DNA of 36,934 nucleotides, taken from the IMG/VR virus record IMGVR_UViG_3300044625_001284, positions 1 through 36,934 of that record; one strand, given 5' to 3'. How positions within the stretch are numbered: position 1 is the stretch's first letter; every line of letters starts with the position of its first letter. Made by a program: the position numbers and the translations under genes. This DNA comes from a virus. The notes below the pieces were generated by a model. It saw nothing but the letters and a program-made list of their open reading frames with translations. It searched no databases and was not told the origin of the DNA. Shown here in pieces: positions 441 to 36,934 of the stretch.

Positions 441-1103
441 ATGCGAAATCGCATTGCGGGATTCAGCACGGGATTCACGGGCGAGCCGCTAGACGATCGG
501 CTCATCGACGAACGGATGGCGCAGGAGTTCGCCCGGTGGACTCCAGCACAGCGTCGCGTCCGCAGGATGTTCGCACGGATGCGACGACGGAGGATCCGTC
601 GACTTTTGCGGATGCACTTTGCCACGGCCGCCACGGAGGGCGCCCGGGATGCTGAAACTCCGTCGAACCGTGGGCGAGCGGATTGTGGTGATTCCGCCGG
701 ATTCCGGGCCTATTCGCGTGACGCTTGTGGAAGTCCGCGGCGGCAAGGTGTGGCTGGGCTTCGAGGCGGACTCGGAGACGGAGATTCTCCGCGAGGAGCT
801 CTACGAAGCGATGGTTCGGGACGGGGACCGTCAGCCGGTCGAGTGAGCACGGTGGCGGCTTCGCACGGCGACCGGCACCCCGGCGACGCAGAAGCGGACG
901 CTGCCGTAGCCGCGATGCGATGCGACACATGGTTCCGAACGGGCGACGTCGTGCGTTTCACGGATCCAGACCGTGGATTTTACCTGGAGCCGGCGACGGT
1001 GTTGGGAGCGATGACCGCCGGCCAGCTGCTGGTGCAGACGTTCGCCGGCCGAATGGAGCTGGTGATTTCCGAGTCCCAAGTAATCGTTTGGGAGTGTGCG
1101 TGA
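441..1103 (+). CDS. Hypothetical Arg-rich protein; open frame runs across csrA
   Basis: An ATG at 441 with GGAG about eight bases upstream opens a frame whose first ~70 codons look like real GC-rich coding sequence, with an acidic N-terminal part and an Arg-rich stretch around residues 39-57. The frame stays open through csrA (649-846, another frame) and joins the downstream gene at 843-1103 without a stop. Within the csrA overlap it reads as low-complexity Gly/Arg/Ser and is probably not selected. Either one 220-residue protein is made, or an N-terminal gene has lost its stop and the true C-terminal product starts at 843. No family is recognised. Confidence 0.35.
   Translation: MRNRIAGFSTGFTGEPLDDRLIDERMAQEFARWTPAQRRVRRMFARMRRRRIRRLLRMHFATAATEGARDAETPSNRGRADCGDSAGFRAYSRDACGSPRRQGVAGLRGGLGDGDSPRGALRSDGSGRGPSAGRVSTVAASHGDRHPGDAEADAAVAAMRCDTWFRTGDVVRFTDPDRGFYLEPATVLGAMTAGQLLVQTFAGRMELVISESQVIVWECA
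649..846 (+). CDS. csrA: CsrA-family post-transcriptional regulator
   Basis: The 65-residue product has the CsrA layout: N-terminal MLKLRRTVGERIVV, the central VTLVEVRGGKVWLGF strand region, and a C-terminal LREELYEAM segment holding the conserved Arg used in RNA binding. CsrA dimers bind GGA motifs in mRNA leaders and block or stabilise translation. The start is fixed by GGAGGG at 635-640. Its place near the front of the early operon suggests a role in redirecting host or phage translation soon after infection; this role is inferred. The family assignment is strong from sequence, although the host target is unknown. Confidence 0.92.
   Translation: MLKLRRTVGERIVVIPPDSGPIRVTLVEVRGGKVWLGFEADSETEILREELYEAMVRDGDRQPVE
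843..1103 (+). CDS. Hypothetical early protein
   Basis: A GTG start overlaps the csrA stop by four bases (GTGA), typical of translational coupling. The 86-residue product has a likely disordered N-terminus, then a compact region beginning near WFRTGDVVRF with alternating hydrophobic residues (FYLEPATVLG, LLVQTFAGRMEL), suggesting a small beta-rich domain. The same frame is open upstream to 441, so an in-frame fusion cannot be excluded. No function is assigned. Confidence 0.5.
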   Translation: MSTVAASHGDRHPGDAEADAAVAAMRCDTWFRTGDVVRFTDPDRGFYLEPATVLGAMTAGQLLVQTFAGRMELVISESQVIVWECA

Positions 1104-17508: not shown

Positions 17509-17904
17509 ATGGCAATCGCAATACTGAACGCAGCCGGCCAAGTCGTCACGTTCGTCCGCGACGACGTTCCAGATGGATGGGCAGCACCCGAAGGATGCAC
17601 CGCCATTCCAGAGACAGAACTTCCGGCCGGATGGGAGCGCGCACCAGATACATCGCCCGTTCCGGAATCCATTACGGCCAGACAGGTGCGACTGTATCTC
17701 GTGAGGCATGGCATTTCTATGGCCTCGGTCGAGGAGGCCATCAACACGATTGCCGATCCCGTCACCCGCGAAAGCGTGAGGGTGGAGTGGGAGTATGCCC
17801 CGTGGATAGATCGCTCGCACACATGGTTGACTCCATTGGCTGAATCGCTCGGCATGAGCGCAGCACAAGTCGACGCCGCCTTCCGCGAGGCGGCAACGCT
17901 ATGA
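17509..17904 (+). CDS. Fibre-associated (assembly-type) protein
   Basis: The start at 17509 lies just after the fibre stop. The 131-residue product has a short N-terminal domain (MAIAILNAAGQVVTFV) and a C-terminal helical domain (about 55-131: TARQVRLYLVRHGISMASVEEAI, RESVRVEWEYAPWIDRSHTWL, ESLGMSAAQVDAAFREA). This C-terminal pattern is common in small proteins encoded next to fibre genes. A chaperone role for the fibre is inferred from that association. Confidence 0.6.
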   Translation: MAIAILNAAGQVVTFVRDDVPDGWAAPEGCTAIPETELPAGWERAPDTSPVPESITARQVRLYLVRHGISMASVEEAINTIADPVTRESVRVEWEYAPWIDRSHTWLTPLAESLGMSAAQVDAAFREAATL

Positions 17905-18302
17905 CTGATATGTTCCGAAAAGCATCGCACTGGCTTGATGAGCGGCGGCATGCCGTGGCAACAAGCGAAGTCGTCTACAGACGTGACGATCGGACAGTAT
18001 CGGTGCGGGCCACCATCGGACGCACGGAGTACCAGCAAGATGACGGCGTGGGCGTCATTACCAGGGCCGAAACCCGTGATTTCATCATCCGTGCGCGTGA
18101 ACTGTTGATTGACGGAGTGCAAGTTCTTCCAGAAGTTGGCGACCGCGTTGAGGAAGTAGATCGCGGCACGCTGTTTATCTACGAAGTGCTGCCTGTCGGC
18201 AGCATGCAACCGCACTATCGCTACTCCGATCAATACCGCACGACGCTGCGCATCCACACAAAACTTGTCGCTGAGGAGTTTGCATCGTCATGCCAGCGAT
18301 AA
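17901..18302 (+). CDS. Probable head-tail adaptor/stopper protein
   Basis: The 133-residue product has alternating strands (SEVVYRRDDRTVSVRATIG, TRDFIIRARELLIDG, DRVEEVDRGTLFIYEVLP), like small beta-barrel joining proteins that seal the portal. It is coupled to its neighbours and sits between the fibre cassette and the presumed tail terminator. The call rests on position and fold pattern. Confidence 0.5.
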   Translation: MTDMFRKASHWLDERRHAVATSEVVYRRDDRTVSVRATIGRTEYQQDDGVGVITRAETRDFIIRARELLIDGVQVLPEVGDRVEEVDRGTLFIYEVLPVGSMQPHYRYSDQYRTTLRIHTKLVAEEFASSCQR

Positions 18303-18721
18303 CACAACGCATCGCCGACGCCATCCTGTCGGAGCTCGTAGGACACACGTTTTCATCGACGTTTACTGCCGCGCGAAAGTACGTTCCACAGTTTGACCTT
18401 CGCGATATCGACGGAATCCAGATCAGCGTTGTACCGCGCTCAGTCACTATCGCGAACGCGGACAGGTCGCGCACGTCGCACGAGGTGTCTGTGGACGTAG
18501 CAGTGCAGCGTAAGGTCACCAACGTGCTGCCAAGCGAGATCGACCCACTGATGGATTTAGTGCAGGAAGTAGCCGATTTTCTCACGCGCCTGCGCCTATC
18601 AAACGCTCTACACGCGTCATGGCTGCGAATCGCCAACACGCCGATTTATTCGCCAGAGCACATGGTCGAAAAGCGGATGTTCACCAGCGTTCTCACCGTC
18701 ACCTACATCGTGCATCGCTAA
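18290..18721 (+). CDS. Probable tail terminator/completion protein
   Basis: The 143-residue product has the mixed alpha/beta pattern of tail-terminator proteins (gpU-like): an N-terminal helix (ITQRIADAILSELV), a strand VEVVP-like segment (GIQISVVPRSVTIAN), a long helix (IDPLMDLVQEVADFLTRLRL) and a final strand (SVLTVTYIVHR). It overlaps the adaptor gene by 13 bases. Direct sequence similarity is not clear. Confidence 0.5.
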   Translation: MPAITQRIADAILSELVGHTFSSTFTAARKYVPQFDLRDIDGIQISVVPRSVTIANADRSRTSHEVSVDVAVQRKVTNVLPSEIDPLMDLVQEVADFLTRLRLSNALHASWLRIANTPIYSPEHMVEKRMFTSVLTVTYIVHR

Positions 18722-18733
18722 CAGGACACTCCC

Positions 18734-19105
18734 ATGGCAGATACGAATGCACCAGCCGCCGCCGCGGTCCAGTTCGATGCGATCGCTGACCAACTAGCCG
18801 CCTTCATGAACCAAGCCAGGGTCACCGCGGCCGACGGCCTGACATGGACGGAGTTCGGTGAACTGCTGCTGTCGCTTCTGCGATTGGTTATCACCACGCT
18901 TGACTCTGTCACAACGCTTTCCGGTGAGGAAAAAAAGTCGATTGCCCTGGGTGCGGTGGAGCGGCTGTTTGATGCCGTGGCCGACAAGGCTGTGCCAGCG
19001 GCCGTCTACCCGCTCTGGCTGCTCGTCCGACCGGCCGTGCGGTCGTTCGTCGTTGCAATCGCATCCGGGTCCATCGAAAAGCTTCTCCCGCTGGTGAGGG
19101 CCTGA
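18734..19105 (+). CDS. Hypothetical protein with hydrophobic C-terminus
   Basis: The 123-residue product is helical with Leu-rich segments (FGELLLSLLRLVITTLDSV) and a hydrophobic C-terminal half (AVYPLWLLVRPAVRSFVVAIA). It could associate with membrane. It is the first gene of the eight-gene block that interrupts the tail genes. No named family is recognised. Confidence 0.55.
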   Translation: MADTNAPAAAAVQFDAIADQLAAFMNQARVTAADGLTWTEFGELLLSLLRLVITTLDSVTTLSGEEKKSIALGAVERLFDAVADKAVPAAVYPLWLLVRPAVRSFVVAIASGSIEKLLPLVRA

Positions 19106-19106
19106 C

Positions 19107-19358
19107 ATGCTCGACAACGTCAGGCTGCTCGTGGAATGGGCACCACTGCTCGGATACGGCCGGCGGCTGTCGGCAGCCACCGACGACCGCCAGCGGTCCG
19201 AGGTCATCGCCGACGCCCTCGAGTGGCTGTCATCGAAGACCGGTAACCGCATTGACGACGAACTGTCCGGTCTCCTGGCAGCCGTACTTAAGACCCCGGA
19301 GGGTGCGGCCCTTTCCGGGTGGATCGCCGACAAGGCCGCTGACCTGGAGAAGCCATGA
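19107..19358 (+). CDS. Hypothetical helical protein
   Basis: The 83-residue product follows the previous gene by one base and overlaps the next. It is helical (VRLLVEWAPLLGYGRRLS, LSGLLAAVLKTPEGAALSG) without a clear membrane span. Function is unknown; co-expression with membrane and protease genes suggests the same task. Confidence 0.5.
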   Translation: MLDNVRLLVEWAPLLGYGRRLSAATDDRQRSEVIADALEWLSSKTGNRIDDELSGLLAAVLKTPEGAALSGWIADKAADLEKP

Positions 19359-19597
19359 CATACGTCAACATCGCCCAGTACGTGATCGCCGCCGGCCTCG
19401 TCGGCTATGGCGTCTTCGTAGGAGTGCAGAAGCTGGGCGGCCGGTTCGGACGTCGGCGCGATCGGACGCCGGTGGACGACCTTCGCCTGGTCATCGACCT
19501 TGCGGCCCGGCTGCGAGACCAAGGGAAGACCTCGGCTGTGTCGGTGTGCCAGCAGCTGCTTGATGAACTGCTCAAGCCGGAGACCACGAAATCGTGA
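19355..19597 (+). CDS. Small membrane protein, holin-like
   Basis: The 80-residue product has one N-terminal membrane span (VIAAGLVGYGVFVGVQKL) followed by a basic, helical tail (RFGRRRDRTPVDDLRLVIDL). Size and topology fit a type III holin or a membrane anchor. It is coupled on both sides to its neighbours. The holin role is a guess from context. Confidence 0.45.
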   Translation: MTYVNIAQYVIAAGLVGYGVFVGVQKLGGRFGRRRDRTPVDDLRLVIDLAARLRDQGKTSAVSVCQQLLDELLKPETTKS

Positions 19598-19962
19598 AGC
19601 CGCTCGTCTTCATCGCCACCGGGATTCTCCTGCTGACGCTGCCGCGCGTCGAGTTTGGCCGCGTGGACATGAGCGGGTCTGCCACGGCGGCGGTTTACGT
19701 CTACGAGAAGGACGCAGGAGGTGTCCCGCCGTTCGTGACCGTCGCGGTCAACCGGCTGAACCGCGATCGGAAGGTAGTCGCGACGCTTCTTGAGGACGAC
19801 ACGACCGACGGCAATGGAGACGTCCCGGAGCAGTATCGCGCCGCCCTGGATGCAGCCCGCAAGGCCGGGCTTCCAGCCATCGTCGCACTGGCCGGACGGA
19901 CGGTGATCCGGGTGACTCCTCGGCCCTCAAGCGAAACCGCGATGATGGAGGCCGTGCCGTGA
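19594..19962 (+). CDS. Exported hypothetical protein
   Basis: A GTG start overlaps the previous stop. The 122-residue product begins with a signal or anchor sequence (MKPLVFIATGILLLTLP), then a folded segment with strands (SATAAVYVYEKD, PFVTVAVNRLNRDRKV). It would act in the envelope. No family is recognised. Confidence 0.55.
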   Translation: MKPLVFIATGILLLTLPRVEFGRVDMSGSATAAVYVYEKDAGGVPPFVTVAVNRLNRDRKVVATLLEDDTTDGNGDVPEQYRAALDAARKAGLPAIVALAGRTVIRVTPRPSSETAMMEAVP

Positions 19963-20828
19963 TTGACCCCAATCTCATCGACGTCTTCCCTGAAGAGCAT
20001 GACGGATACCCGGCGAGCCTCGCAATCGAGGACACGCCAGACGCCCTACGCGATGCCTGCGGCGACGCCTCGCGCGAGTTTCCGGATGCGCTGTGGATCG
20101 AGCCGCGCGAGTGGGTGGCTCATGCACGGGAGAACGATGCGGCAGGATCGTGGGGCCTGAACTACATCGACCGGTTCACCAATCAGAATCCGACCCACGA
20201 ATGCACTTGCCATAGTCTGCGGGCCAATGTCGAGGCCGCACGCAACCGGGCGCGAGGCGTGAACTACGGTGGACCAAAGAAGGACTACCGCTACCCCGAG
20301 TCGCGCGAGTTCGGGGCCGTGTGGCTCTCGCCGCTGTCTGTCTATGCAGAGGCGAACCCACGGCAGTGGGGCGGCGCGAACGTCCGCGTGGTGCTTGAGA
20401 TCGCCTGCCGCCGCGGCATGCTGCCCGACACTGTGCAGCCCTACGACTACCGTTTTCGCCACGCCATGCCTGGAACGGTTGGCAAGGGCGGCCTGAACCA
20501 GTCGCACGGGCCGTGGACGCCGGTCTCGCGGTTCCCGGATGGCTGGGAGGAGACGGCGAAGAATTTCCGGCCGTTAGAGGTGATTTTCCCGGAGAGCTAC
20601 GAGCAGGCCGTGTGCCTCGTGCTCCACGGCTACGTCGTCAGCGTTGGCCGCAACGGACACGCGGTGCCATGGGCACGGTGGATTCCCGATCAGCGGCTCA
20701 TGGCCTACCCGGACTCCTACGACATCGTGCGATACGACTCGGAACGGACCGCCCGCTCGGCGTGGGAGGGATCGTTCGCCGTGGCGTCCGTGACTCTCCC
20801 CGATGATTGGAGCCGGCCCGCCGGGTGA
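19959..20828 (+). CDS. Papain-like cysteine peptidase-type protein
   Basis: A GTG start overlaps the previous stop. The 289-residue product has a Q-x5-C arrangement (Gln76, Cys82, with Cys84 close by) in QNPTHECTCHSL followed by a helix, as in the papain active site. GGANVRVVLEIACRRGMLP matches the usual second subdomain, and SVGRNGHAVPW (His234) supplies the likely catalytic His, with Asp residues in PDSYD following. It carries no signal peptide. It could be a lysin-like or virion protease. The fold call rests on motif order; activity is unproved. Confidence 0.5.
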   Translation: MIDPNLIDVFPEEHDGYPASLAIEDTPDALRDACGDASREFPDALWIEPREWVAHARENDAAGSWGLNYIDRFTNQNPTHECTCHSLRANVEAARNRARGVNYGGPKKDYRYPESREFGAVWLSPLSVYAEANPRQWGGANVRVVLEIACRRGMLPDTVQPYDYRFRHAMPGTVGKGGLNQSHGPWTPVSRFPDGWEETAKNFRPLEVIFPESYEQAVCLVLHGYVVSVGRNGHAVPWARWIPDQRLMAYPDSYDIVRYDSERTARSAWEGSFAVASVTLPDDWSRPAG

Positions 20829-21640
20829 CCATGATCGCCATCAAGGCAGACACGACGCCGTTCCTACGCGACCTCCGCCGCGCCGCCGCTCTCGTGGCAG
20901 CGTGGGCCGCTCTGGCCGCGGCCGCCCCGTGCTCGAACTGCCACGGCGACCGGGTCGTCGGCCCCGGCCCTGTGCGGTTCGCCTGCCCGGTGTGCGACGG
21001 TGCCGGCGAGCTCACAGAACCGCAGGCGCCACCGGCCCCAGCTGCTGCCGCTGCACCCGGCCCACGGCCGGCCGTCTGCCGGATCGAGTGCGGGTCCGGC
21101 CCGTCCCGCGACTGCGGCAGCGGCGTGCTCGTCGAGGCCCGCGACGGCCGGGCTCGCGTGCTCACCGCCTGGCACGTCTGCCGCGGCAACCGAGACGCGA
21201 TCACGATCCGCTGGCCGGACGGCACCAGCAGCCCGGCCCGCGTGACCGCGTGGGATTCCGCCTGGGATCTGGCGGTCCTCTCGACCGCGGCCCCCGCCGC
21301 CGCCCCGGTGCCGATCGCGGCCAGGCCCCCGGCCATCGGCGACCGGCTGACGCTCGCCGGCTACGGGCCAGTGCCTTTCGTCTACCGGGAGGCGAGCGGC
21401 GAGGTGACCCAGTTCGTCGGCCCGACTGGCCGGCACCCCATGCACATGGTCGAGGTTCGTGCCGCGGCCCGGCAGGGCGACTCCGGCGGTCCGATCTTCA
21501 ACGCCCGCGGCGAGTTGGTCGCGGTGCTGTGGGGAACGACCGGCGGACTGACTGCCGGGAGCCATGTCGCCGAGATCCGGCGGATGCTGGGCCAGCCGGT
21601 GGCCGCCGCCGTCTGCCGGGACGGGAGGTGCGAGCGATGA
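20825..21640 (+). CDS. Secreted trypsin-like serine protease with CxxC motifs
   Basis: The 271-residue product has a basic start and hydrophobic segment (AALVAAWAALAAAA, about 21-34), like a signal or anchor. Two CxxC motifs follow, CSNCHG and CPVCDGAG (36-61), as in DnaJ zinc centres, and then a trypsin-like domain with a full triad: His117 in TAWHVC, Asp148 in AWDLAVL, Ser220 in RQGDSGGP. Starts at GTG 20825 (overlapping the upstream stop) or ATG 20831 are both possible. An exported protease in a phage late operon is unusual and could attack surface or envelope proteins at lysis. Confidence 0.85.
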   Translation: MTMIAIKADTTPFLRDLRRAAALVAAWAALAAAAPCSNCHGDRVVGPGPVRFACPVCDGAGELTEPQAPPAPAAAAAPGPRPAVCRIECGSGPSRDCGSGVLVEARDGRARVLTAWHVCRGNRDAITIRWPDGTSSPARVTAWDSAWDLAVLSTAAPAAAPVPIAARPPAIGDRLTLAGYGPVPFVYREASGEVTQFVGPTGRHPMHMVEVRAAARQGDSGGPIFNARGELVAVLWGTTGGLTAGSHVAEIRRMLGQPVAAAVCRDGRCER

Positions 21641-21933
21641 CCGACGCCGACTACGTCTGGGCCGAACTGGCCCGTCATCCGATCCGCCGGGCCATGCTCG
21701 GCCGCGAGCGGTGCGACGAGATCGTCGCGACGGCTGCCAGCATGTCGCCCACGGGCGGGGCGGCCGTGGCCGCCGGCCGCAACCGCGACGACATGCGGCG
21801 GATGTGGGAGGGCCGTGTCCGCGACGAATACGCGAGCCGCGCGGGGTTCGCGTTCATGACCATGCTGGTCATGTGGGCCATTGGTGCCATCGTGCAGGCA
21901 CTCGTAAGGAAGTGGTGGGAGGAAAACCCGTGA
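21637..21933 (+). CDS. Small protein with C-terminal membrane span
   Basis: The 98-residue product is polar and helical for its first 65 residues and ends with one membrane span (AFMTMLVMWAIGAIVQALV) and a short basic tail. It is coupled to the protease and to the next membrane protein. It may be a holin partner or spanin-like protein; no family is recognised. Confidence 0.5.
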   Translation: MTDADYVWAELARHPIRRAMLGRERCDEIVATAASMSPTGGAAVAAGRNRDDMRRMWEGRVRDEYASRAGFAFMTMLVMWAIGAIVQALVRKWWEENP

Positions 21934-22235
21934 CACAGCAGACGAGCGACGCCATTGACGTCGGCATCCGCATCGCGAGGGAGTTCGGATTTCCGTGCTT
22001 TGTCCTTGCCGTTGTCGGCTATTGGTGCCAGTTGGCCGCCGTGGCATTGCACGAAACAGTTTTGAAGCCAGTCGTGGAATCGCACTCCACGTTTCTTAGG
22101 ACCACTTCGGACACGCTCTCAACGCTCTCAAGGGCACAGGAGCGGCAGGCCGACACGCTTGAGGAATTGGCCGCTGGTCAGCGGGAACTTCAGCACACCA
22201 TCGGCAAGGCCGTTGGCGAAGGGAGCCGGCGATGA
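21930..22235 (+). CDS. Holin-like membrane/coiled-coil protein
   Basis: A GTG start with GGAGG about eight bases upstream overlaps the previous stop. The 101-residue product has a membrane span (FPCFVLAVVGYWCQLAAVAL) followed by a long coiled coil (TLSRAQERQADTLEELAAGQ). This layout is seen in many small phage membrane proteins encoded in lysis cassettes. A holin or antiholin role is likely but unproved. Confidence 0.5.
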   Translation: MTQQTSDAIDVGIRIAREFGFPCFVLAVVGYWCQLAAVALHETVLKPVVESHSTFLRTTSDTLSTLSRAQERQADTLEELAAGQRELQHTIGKAVGEGSRR

Positions 22236-22873
22236 GTGCCACCGTGAAGATCGAGGACAGGACGTCCTACGTGCGCAGGGCCATGCGCCGAGCGACGTTC
22301 AAAAACCTCGGACACGCTGGCGCCAGCCTGCGCCTTGCGGCACAGCGACTTATCCGCACTCGGCAGAATGCCAGTGATCCTGGCACACCTCCGCACACCC
22401 GCAAGGGAGCGCTGCGGAACTCAATCCTCTACGCCGTCGAGGGCGATCATACGGTGGTCATCGGGCCGGCTTCGCACCTGATTTCCGACGTTGCCGCGGC
22501 CCACGAGCACGGAGGCATGCAACGCCCAAGGTCGCTCCGTGGCAAGTCGCCTGAAAGCCTCGTCGCCGCAGGCACAAACTGGAAACTGTTCGTCGGCGGG
22601 CATGGCCCAATCAGCGACGCATCCGGCACTGTCTACATCAAGTTCGTGAGTGAGGCCCAGGTCGACAAGAGCAAGCGGTACATCGAAACCGCTCCAGCCG
22701 AAGCATTCGGAAATACCCGCAAAGCACGCATGCAGGCAGAGAAACGCCGGGTACGCGCTCTTGTAGCTGCCCACGGCGGCGTCGCCAACTACCCGAAACG
22801 CCCGTTCATGGGGCCGGCCCTGATGCAAAACATCGACCGACTTCCGCGACTGTGGGCCAACAGCGTTCAGTGA
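22232..22873 (+). CDS. HK97 gp10-like tail completion protein
   Basis: The 213-residue product carries the HK97 gp10/minor tail pattern: basic N-terminal helix, SDPGTPPHTRKGALRNSILYAV, a VVIGPASHL segment, AAHEHGG, and the C-terminal YPKRPFMGPAL. These proteins finish the head-tail joint. It restarts the tail module after the eight-gene block, and it overlaps the previous stop by four bases. Confidence 0.75.
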   Translation: MSATVKIEDRTSYVRRAMRRATFKNLGHAGASLRLAAQRLIRTRQNASDPGTPPHTRKGALRNSILYAVEGDHTVVIGPASHLISDVAAAHEHGGMQRPRSLRGKSPESLVAAGTNWKLFVGGHGPISDASGTVYIKFVSEAQVDKSKRYIETAPAEAFGNTRKARMQAEKRRVRALVAAHGGVANYPKRPFMGPALMQNIDRLPRLWANSVQ

Positions 22874-30336: not shown

Positions 30337-30893
30337 AGATCATCGGATTTGCAGGCAGAATCGGTTCCGGGAAGACGCTCGCTGCGTCGATGGTGCCGGA
30401 TGCCCACTGTCTCCAGTGGGCCGATCCGCTCTACCGCGGCCTTTCGGCCATCTTTGATGTTCCGGAAGAGGTGCTTCGCAACCGCGCCCAGAAAGAAGCT
30501 TGCTTCGCCTGCGGTGAGATCGAGGTCGTCCCTCGCGACCTGCTCCGCACCCTCGGCACCGAATGGGGGCGTGAGCTCGTCCATCCGGACCTTTGGGTGT
30601 CACTGACTATGGCCCGGATTGACCGATTGCACGACCAGATCGGTGCCGACACGTTCGCAATCTGCGGGACGCGATTCCCGAACGAACTCGCTGCGATCCG
30701 CGACCGGGGCGGGGAGGTGTGGTGGGTTGACCGCCCTGGGGTTTCCCTCGGCACGCATTCCAGCGACTTCCGGATCGGGCCGAACGACTGCGACGACGTG
30801 ATCCTCAACAGCGGCACCGTCTCGCAGCTGCGGCACCGAGTGCTCGGGGCGTGGGCCGCCTACACCGGGAGCATTCCATGTCCGGTCCGCTGA
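30333..30893 (+). CDS. Deoxynucleoside monophosphate kinase
   Basis: The 186-residue product has a P-loop GFAGRIGSGKT at residues 5-15, then VPRDLLRTLGTEWGREL and FAICGTRFPNELAAI, which match phage dNMP kinases of the T4 gp1 type. These enzymes raise dNMPs to dNDPs for DNA synthesis. A GTG start after GGAGG overlaps the previous stop. Confidence 0.8.
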   Translation: MKIIGFAGRIGSGKTLAASMVPDAHCLQWADPLYRGLSAIFDVPEEVLRNRAQKEACFACGEIEVVPRDLLRTLGTEWGRELVHPDLWVSLTMARIDRLHDQIGADTFAICGTRFPNELAAIRDRGGEVWWVDRPGVSLGTHSSDFRIGPNDCDDVILNSGTVSQLRHRVLGAWAAYTGSIPCPVR

Positions 30894-31024
30894 TTGCCAT
30901 GACTGGGCTGATCTACGCCTACGTTGCCGCGGAATTGGCGTGGGCCGGAAAGCCCGGACTCGCCATCGCCTACGCCGGCTACGCGTTCGCAAACATTGGT
31001 CTCTATATCGCCGCCACGAGGTGA
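30878..31024 (+). CDS. Small two-span membrane protein
   Basis: A 48-residue gene overlaps the kinase end by 16 bases. The product has two short hydrophobic segments (LIAMTGLIYAYVAAELAW and AIAYAGYAFANIGLYIAA) separated by a GKPG turn. It is so short that similarity searches may miss it. It stops four bases before the metallopeptidase gene. Confidence 0.55.
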   Translation: MSGPLIAMTGLIYAYVAAELAWAGKPGLAIAYAGYAFANIGLYIAATR

Positions 31025-31027
31025 CCC

Positions 31028-31696
31028 ATGCGAGCCGTCTGCGACCTGCCGCCCGAAGCCTGTGCCTGGATGGAGTCCGTGCTCCGCGAGCTTGAGCACG
31101 CCGAGATCGAGGTTCGGCTGATCGACGCGGAGCAAGCCGATTGCCACGGCAGCCCGGTCGGGGGCTACTTCGACGAGGACCAGGCCGAGTTCGTCGTGGC
31201 CACTGGAGGCCGGCAGGAACTCTGGCTGTCCGTGTTCCTGCACGAGTACATGCACTTTCGGCAGTCGCAGGCTGCGACGCCGGCATGGACGGCCAAGCTC
31301 GCCGGCGGGGCCTGCCCGCAACAGGCGTTCGACGCGTGGCTGGCCGGGGTGGTCGAAATGACGCCCGAGCAGCTGCGGGCGGCCGTCGGGCTCGTGCTGA
31401 CCATGGAGCGGGAGTGTGAGACGATGGCCCTGGAAACGCTCCAGATCACTCCAGAAATACCGATTGACCGGGAATGGTACATCCGGGCGACGAACGTCTA
31501 TCTCGGCTTCTACGGCGTCGTGATGCGGACTCGGCGGTGGTACGACCGGTCACCCTACTCCCGTCCAGATCCGCTGACGCTCGTGCCCGGTGACCGGCTG
31601 CTATCGGTCAACGAGGCGATGTCGCCGACGCCCGCGTTCGTCGAGGCGATCTGCGAAACGTGCTACCTACCGGCTGGGCTGCGGGTTATGGGGTGA
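31028..31696 (+). CDS. HExxH zinc metallopeptidase-like protein
   Basis: The 222-residue product has the zinc-binding motif HEYMH (72-76) and a likely third ligand among the Glu residues of MERECETMALE (126-136), the spacing of gluzincins such as ImmA/IrrE-type phage peptidases. Cleavage of a repressor or host factor is one possible role. It is the last gene of the rightward late block, ending 50 bases from a convergent gene. Confidence 0.65.
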   Translation: MRAVCDLPPEACAWMESVLRELEHAEIEVRLIDAEQADCHGSPVGGYFDEDQAEFVVATGGRQELWLSVFLHEYMHFRQSQAATPAWTAKLAGGACPQQAFDAWLAGVVEMTPEQLRAAVGLVLTMERECETMALETLQITPEIPIDREWYIRATNVYLGFYGVVMRTRRWYDRSPYSRPDPLTLVPGDRLLSVNEAMSPTPAFVEAICETCYLPAGLRVMG

Positions 31697-36472: not shown

Positions 36473-36790
36473 TCATCGATCTGCCATCTGAATCGAGTGC
36501 CAAGCCATCTGCTCCGGGTCGATCCTACCCAAGTAGACAACGAAGACCAGATTTGAATTCTCGCCGTGTCGCGACTGGAGCGCGGCGCCAAGTTCCGCGA
36601 GCTTCCTCGCGGCCCGAAACGTAAATCGGGCAAACGAAACGCGAAGGAACGTCGTCGGCGGATCCGCGACCTCACACTGGTCGAGGAAGATTTGCGCCGG
36701 GGCATCCCGGAACGCGTTTGGCCGGTAGAGCTCGTCAGCAGCCTTCCGGATTTCTTCGGCAGTCAGCCCGGCCAGCATCGGTCTCTCCAT
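36473..36790 (-). CDS. Hypothetical protein (complete allele B)
   Basis: The 105-residue product starts at ATG 36790; the diverged partial copy at 1-226 starts with GTG. It is amphipathic: LTAEEIRKAADELYRP, FLDQCEVADPPTTFLRVSFARF, AARKLAELGAALQ and a final NLVFVVYLGRIDPEQM. It has no HTH, so it is not a classic repressor, though it occupies the position next to the early promoter. Two alleles with mainly silent differences indicate real function. Confidence 0.65.
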   Translation of the reverse strand: MERPMLAGLTAEEIRKAADELYRPNAFRDAPAQIFLDQCEVADPPTTFLRVSFARFTFRAARKLAELGAALQSRHGENSNLVFVVYLGRIDPEQMAWHSIQMADR

Positions 36791-36934
36791 GCCGTTTCGT
36801 GCGTGATTCTAGCAGTTTTCCGTTTTCGGAAAACTTGGCTTGACAGCGTTTTCCGAGTCCCATAAAACCCCTCACCGTGACGCTCGCAGTGAGCGTTGCC
36901 GCGACGCACAAGCGATCGCGTAAACGGATTCTCC
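36565..36934. repeat. Right copy of diverged terminal direct repeat
   Basis: This is the second copy of the sequence at 1-371, with the complete reverse-strand gene extending out to its left. The promoter/operator portion (36815-36876) is where the copies differ most. See the left copy for the comparison. Confidence 0.9.
36815..36868 (+). promoter_or_regulatory. Early rightward promoter with GTTTTCCG operator repeats (allele B)
   Basis: TTGACA (36840-36845), a 17-base spacer and TAAAAC (36863-36868) form the promoter equivalent to 277-305. GTTTTCCG and its inverse CGGAAAAC (36815-36822 and 36827-36834) make a perfect inverted pair upstream of the -35, and a third GTTTTCCG (36848-36855) lies in the spacer. 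On the reverse strand a TAGAAT (36806-36811) serves the divergent gene. The operators differ from those of the left copy. Confidence 0.6.

Follow-up and report, generated by a model that had tools for sequence, protein, structure and literature searches.

How does a tailed phage leave its host when no endolysin can be recognised in its genome? The question is raised by positions 18734–22235 of a viral contig of 36,934 bases (IMG/VR record IMGVR_UViG_3300044625_001284; this whole stretch is referred to as the window), where eight open reading frames (ORFs; g1–g8) follow one another on the plus strand with junctions of 1–4 bases. The products are predicted to include small membrane proteins, a thioredoxin-fold protein, a papain-like peptidase (g5) and a trypsin-like protease (g6). 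The block is read here as a protease-centred cassette for the exit (lysis) of tailed phages that infect Planctomycetia, with a probability of about 0.62. This reading was reached by sequence comparison, because the genes form a coupled unit that is shared by unrelated phage backbones and swapped at fixed borders, and because no peptidoglycan hydrolase was recognised.

In the viral collection, single-sequence patterns picked up at least 101 relatives of g5 and alignment patterns 128. The sample for comparison held 94 loci (93 fetched loci and the window), of which 60 span both sides of g5. All eight genes were present in order in 51 of these 60, and the coupled eight-gene block described in the initial annotation was thus confirmed. 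Six of the remaining nine lacked only a recognisable g1, two (L010, L024) carried an inserted DNA methyltransferase gene that pushes g1 and g2 off the contig, and one (L047) was without g7 and g8. Overlaps of 4 bases were kept at g2/g3 (60 of 63), g3/g4 (63 of 63), g4/g5 (57 of 63) and g6/g7 (59 of 63); this conservation of coupling is far beyond chance. No clear case of a cassette with g4 and without g5 was found in the sample, the candidates lying near a contig end and some of them behind an inserted gene. The methyltransferase-like gene (DPPY motif, variable central region) is inserted between g4 and g5 at L010 (624–1970) and also occurs at L013, L024, L033, L083 and L084; its place is taken by a basic ORF of 53 amino acids (aa) at L018–L020 and L023.

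The same cassette was found at three different sites in three unrelated backbones. In type A (window, G022, G029, G016, L092, L005), which has a lambda-type portal, it lies at the head–tail joint, between genes of the 18290 type and the neck gene. Type B phages (G021, G026, G007, G023, G020, L082, L017, L049), whose terminase and portal differ from those of type A, carry it between the prohead protease and major capsid genes. In type C (G011, L020, L031, L041, L062, G028) it follows the tail, metallophosphoesterase and deoxynucleoside monophosphate (dNMP) kinase genes, the kinase not being seen in L062. Exact end repeats of 123–127 bases mark G029, G021 and G026 as complete. Near type-A relatives (neck identity of about 71 % and up) had cassette genes in 30 of 30 loci.

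At two of the sites, those of types B and C, genes 2–8 are cleanly swapped for another module, which is built around a second, canonical papain-like enzyme. Two scans brought up relatives without g5, one with the capsid gene of type B as query and one with the gene (121 aa) next after the type-C cassette. For type B, 28 loci with g5 and 18 with the alternative module were obtained, and none with neither; all 18 keep g1 together with the alternative module (13 by reading, five by contig name). The 79 type-C loci comprised 26 with g5 (17 from the scan and nine fetched earlier), 51 with the alternative module, none with neither and two that were too short. In both backbones homology stops at the end of g1 and resumes after g8. 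For type C (L311 versus G011), the DNA was 94.7 % identical as far as the final bases of g1 and 99.3 % identical directly after the last cassette gene, the module being the main difference between the two; the same two borders were found in type B (L223 versus G021), with 95 % identity before (parts 79–95 %) and 97 % after.

The alternative module encodes a 182-aa membrane protein, an enzyme of ∼370 aa that has papain motifs (QGxxDCxSxGW, NSWG) and a membrane segment at its N-terminus, an 85-aa membrane protein and a cysteine-rich protein of ∼100 aa. The enzyme is encoded by 295 stretches of the viral collection, with Q, C and H kept in 72 of 72 sequences and the NSWG-type Asn in 70 of 72; a PDB sequence search with it gave one chance match only. 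The module sometimes includes a Transgly_assoc-like protein (E 1.3e-4, below cut-off), and this small GlsB/YeaQ-like membrane protein is frequent (L250, 4955–5212; L238, L251, L319, L361). Besides g1, a papain-like peptidase and small membrane proteins are common to both modules. A module-for-module exchange of this kind would be expected of two solutions to one task. The initial annotation had given the two proteases equal weight; since no recognisable g6 was found in the alternative modules inspected, the comparison favours the papain-like enzyme as the probable central protease.

Three further observations concern these sites and modules. Near the neck gene of L192, L194, L197, L198, L200 and L201, a tailspike-like gene of ∼526 aa with small partners occupies the position that the cassette has in the window. 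A canonical papain-family protein lies between two tail genes of a distant type-A phage (L212/L303, 13765–14529), a further position for such an enzyme. On the 77-kb contig G056 (L376–L379), a type-A phage with the g1–g8 cassette adjoins a type-C phage that carries the alternative module, which represents either tandem prophages or a chimeric assembly.

That the window lacks a recognised endolysin, as first noted from its letters, was borne out by family searches of the window and of 27–30 whole records. No peptidoglycan hydrolase was found by Pfam and PHROG scans of the window (among the best 25 of 35 Pfam families and the best 25 of 62 PHROGs); its 47 other proteins gave Pfam matches to portal, capsid, cement, terminase nuclease, RecT, YqaJ, integrase, CsrA and dNMP kinase, among others. 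No match to Amidase_2 was found in 30 whole records, and none to Phage_lysozyme, SLT, M23, NLPC_P60 or M15_3 in 27, of which 11 have the g1–g8 cassette and 16 the alternative module or its backbone; cellular control genomes gave matches in the hydrolase-family searches. In two complete type-B genomes, 53 further proteins matched 20 Pfam families, none of them a peptidoglycan hydrolase, and one more family list, likewise of the best 25 entries, showed none either; the scans of related phages covered proteins of 60 aa or more without homology to window genes. All of these searches rest on known families, and a novel hydrolase would escape them.

The residues singled out in the initial annotation, Cys82 of g5 and Ser220 of g6, proved invariant. 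In g5, Q76, C82 and H234 were kept in 71 of 71 distinct sequences and D252 in the 70 of 70 that reach this position; neither a signal nor a membrane segment was seen by hydropathy. C82 aligns with the active Cys of a phage protein (from G040) that exceeds the cut-off of Pfam Peptidase_C1 (PF00112). The sole link to that protein is a collinear local pairwise BLAST match (E ∼1e-8 to 1e-6, small databases), hmmsearch with the g5 profile giving no match to it. As g5 matched neither PF00112 nor any other Pfam, NCBIfam or PHROG profile, it is termed papain-like and not filed in C1. In fold searches with the g5 model, C1-type enzymes or close relatives filled the top six Foldseek rows and 18 of 19 VIA rows, at weak scores (Z 7.1 at most, best Foldseek E 1.1). 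A PDB sequence search with g5 gave nothing, and no relative was found among INPHARED phages.

The only cassette gene with a clear family is g6, which matched Pfam Trypsin_2 (PF13365) with E 3.7e-20 and 73.6 bits against a cut-off of 27.6; an NCBIfam MarP-like match (E 1.7e-14) stayed far below its cut-offs. The triad is kept (H117 and D148 in 64 of 64, S220 in the 61 of 61 that reach it), and the CxxC/CxxC four-cysteine knuckle is invariant in 67 of 67 sequences, six truncated rows being without the serine part. For g1–g5, g7 and g8, NCBIfam gave no match, Pfam none of note and PHROG matches at chance level only. By hydropathy, the small membrane proteins announced in the initial annotation are probably g3 (57 of 60 sequences with a membrane segment), g7 (58 of 59) and g8 (54 of 56); the description does not fit g2 (0 of 58), and g1 is only moderately hydrophobic. 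The protein first listed simply as exported, g4, appears to be more than that: its model, with a predicted local distance difference test score (pLDDT) of 84.6, has a thioredoxin fold (topology beta-alpha-beta-alpha-beta-beta-alpha), and the rows listed in two fold searches were overwhelmingly thioredoxins or thioredoxin-fold proteins, at weak scores (best E 2.8e-3, Z 7.7).

Viruses with the cassette probably infect Planctomycetes. The only g5 match in the genome collection was in one Planctomycetaceae genome bin, whose phage contig has no clear host flank, and the bin alone is weak host evidence. Of 392 Planctomycetota genomes, 10 were found to have prophages with the alternative enzyme, several of these on chromosome-size contigs, and for this module planctomycete hosts are established. 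The order of g1 and the alternative module is kept at L406–L408, with a terminase-like gene no more than a few kilobases away at L406 and L407 (translated ORFs read); a CxxC thioredoxin-like ORF lies beside the papain-like gene at L407, L408, L410 and L414 (Pfam tested for L408, L410 and L414). Cysteine-rich YTV wall proteins are encoded by 11 of 11 carriers (the 10 genomes and the bin) and by 5 of 90 non-carrier genomes of the phylum (2 of 40 and 3 of 50), with a Fisher p of 2.7e-11, or 2.7e-6 among genomes of at least 5 Mb. A passage of PMC2754498 presents the planctomycete wall as a disulfide-bonded protein sacculus, and the finding of YTV proteins in wall preparations is stated in part of PMC8567305. 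For another, deep-sea Planctomycetes phage of 21.9 kb, a section of PMC10945688 describes release without lysis. No description of phage exit from Planctomycetes, or of the present cassette, was found in the literature searched.

For the timing, the opening of the membrane, the delivery of g5 and the cleavage of wall protein we infer the following course. Late in infection g3, g7 and g8, perhaps with g1, would open or depolarise the inner membrane, and g5, made without a signal, would then follow the route of an endolysin into the periplasm. The work on the outer side would fall to the trypsin-like g6, anchored in the membrane, and to g4 with its thioredoxin fold. Together, these proteins would cleave the protein layer that bears the load of the wall, a cysteine-rich and disulfide-linked layer that would not yield to a peptidoglycan hydrolase alone. 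A thiol protease, a thioredoxin-fold protein and cysteine-rich exported proteins would suit such a layer. If the cassette serves lysis, wall protein is a likelier target than peptidoglycan peptide, this being the least certain step. More tentative, at somewhat less than even odds, is the wider proposal that lysis does not proceed primarily via peptidoglycan in these phages: two papain-like enzymes, unrelated or anciently split, with helpers (membrane proteins, thioredoxin-fold and cysteine-rich exported proteins, sometimes a trypsin-like protease) would dissolve a disulfide-linked protein wall, and such cassettes would have arisen because the hosts rely on cysteine-rich wall proteins. The original suggestion of protease-based lysis of a protein-rich envelope is upheld in part. 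Sharing, exchange, the lack of a recognised hydrolase and the cysteine-rich host walls speak for it; the papain fold speaks against a firm choice, since peptidoglycan enzymes of the NlpC/P60 and CHAP types have it as well.

Several observations weigh against the lysis cassette or against parts of its proposed action. Two of the three cassette sites lie within structural operons, where lysis genes are unusual, and none of the cassette proteins matched a holin or spanin family in Pfam, PHROG or NCBIfam. In g5, D252 stands where papain has its catalytic Asn (NSWG), and the g5 model is poor (pLDDT 48). The two papain-like enzymes may share the fold only, because profile comparison could not join them (hhalign 0.2 %, hmmsearch at chance level). 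The redox motif CxxC is missing from 23 aligned g4 proteins; as the fold matches are weak as well, g4 is probably a non-redox thioredoxin relative, and disulfide reduction by g4 itself should be assumed only with caution. Distant type-A phages (neck identity 36–57 %) do not have the cassette at this site, and no endolysin was seen in the part of them covered, so that mutual exclusion with a classical endolysin cannot be demonstrated. Here 97 proteins showed no hydrolase against Pfam, one list giving the best 25 of 42 families; they were drawn from a set of 133 closed, non-redundant proteins of distant type-A phages, each of at least 95 aa and without homology to any gene of the window. Descent confounds the YTV association and explains part of it, because these proteins are confined to one planctomycete class according to a passage of PMC10632474. 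Finally, a two-helix membrane protein (48 aa) and an adjoining HExxH protein (222 aa) of the window could serve lysis in type A. The HExxH gene was found only in type-A contigs (G022, G029, G016, G056), and both genes occur together in the window, G022, G016 and G056; in G029 the membrane protein is missing. Neither gene was seen in types B and C, apart from a 50 % match to the two-helix protein in G050; a PDB sequence search with the HExxH protein of the window gave nothing.

The best-placed alternative keeps the block as a lysis cassette and makes g5 a new papain-fold peptidoglycan endopeptidase that would cut stem-peptide cross-links. The predicted fold class of g5 is the one that NlpC/P60 and CHAP share, and like classical endolysins g5 has no signal. 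Planctomycetes are now held to possess peptidoglycan; most peptidoglycan-synthesis genes are nevertheless non-essential in one host genus, namely in Planctopirus limnophila (both from passages of PMC10632474). The lack of an NlpC/P60 match in the 27 records searched, the classical papain motifs of the alternative enzyme and the company of a second, trypsin-like protease make this alternative unlikely.

Rather unlikely, too, is a moron, an accessory cassette that would exclude superinfecting phages or remodel the envelope of the lysogen rather than serve exit. Morons are often inserted inside structural operons, and the block is membrane-rich, moves between backbones and lies in such operons. 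It does not behave as an optional element: no covered type-B or type-C relative was without both modules, all 30 near type-A loci carry cassette genes, and nothing else endolysin-like was seen in these genomes. An improbable role is one in entry, with the enzymes carried by the virion and breaching the protein wall when DNA is injected. In types A and B the genes do have head and tail genes as neighbours; against this, those of type C follow the metallophosphoesterase and dNMP-kinase genes, several products have membrane segments, and the position is tied to no structural module. That the adjoining two-helix and HExxH pair does the lysis in the backbone of the window, leaving the cassette another role, is very improbable, as the HExxH gene was found in type-A contigs only, one of which (G029) has no membrane protein beside it, and the pair cannot serve lysis in types B and C, which lack it.

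The features of the window are collected in the table. The record probably represents an almost complete genome that closes into a circle and varies between strains at its ends, because its first 371 bases (1–371) match its last 374 (36561–36934) with 91 % identity; the same small protein is encoded at both ends, and the imperfect overlap suggests a closed genome assembled from two strains. CsrA, matched in the window, had two further matches among 61 scanned proteins of G011, G028 and G029.

Table. Coordinates of the cassette genes and of other features of the window.
Feature	Position	Strand	Description
g1	18734–19105	+	123 aa, hydrophobic/amphipathic; left border of module exchange; sole cassette gene common to the alternative module
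g2	19107–19358	+	83 aa, soluble, no assigned family
g3	19355–19597	+	80 aa, N-terminal membrane segment, charged helical tail; candidate holin/anchor
g4	19594–19962	+	122 aa, exported or membrane-anchored, predicted thioredoxin fold without CxxC
g5	19959–20828	+	289 aa, papain-like cysteine peptidase; Gln76/Cys82/His234/Asp252
g6	20825 (GTG; or ATG 20831)–21640	+	N-terminal hydrophobic segment, four-cysteine knuckle (C36, C39, C54, C57), trypsin-like domain H117/D148/S220
g7	21637–21933	+	98 aa, C-terminal membrane segment
g8	21930–22235	+	101 aa, N-terminal membrane segment, long helical tail (spanin/holin-like layout); right exchange border
Neck/tail-completion gene (outside cassette)	22232–22873	+	phrog_26, E 1.5e-5
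Two ORFs upstream of cassette	17901–18302 and 18290–18721		
Two-helix membrane protein	30878–31024		48 aa
HExxH protein	31028–31696		222 aa
ORF probably behind the CsrA match	718–846		

Whether protein or peptidoglycan bears the load in the planctomycete wall has long been disputed. If proteases do stand in place of peptidoglycan hydrolases, these lysis genes would be direct evidence on that wall, would provide tools for opening planctomycete cells and would serve as a marker for the host assignment of hundreds of unplaced viral contigs.

Compared with known systems, g5 shares with papain (C1) peptidases such as xylellain the order Gln, Cys, His and then an acid/amide residue, and C1 enzymes are the nearest PDB rows to its low-confidence model; it differs by Asp in place of the catalytic Asn and by the absent profile match. 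With the envelope proteases HtrA/DegP and MarP, g6 shares a Trypsin_2 domain and triad behind an N-terminal hydrophobic segment; it differs by its four-cysteine knuckle, and no PDZ domain was seen. Thioredoxins and g4 have fold and topology in common, CxxC being absent from g4. The cassette as a whole resembles holin–endolysin–spanin cassettes in its compact, coupled layout of predicted small membrane proteins around one or two hydrolases, in its modular exchange between phages and in its late structural-region position. It departs from them in that no protein matches a known holin or spanin family, and in that a papain-like and a trypsin-like protease with a thioredoxin-fold protein take the place of a recognised peptidoglycan hydrolase, the enzyme by which a canonical lysis cassette is defined. 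Resembling these cassettes in layout but not in the defining enzyme, the block is classed as a probable new variant of the phage lysis cassette.

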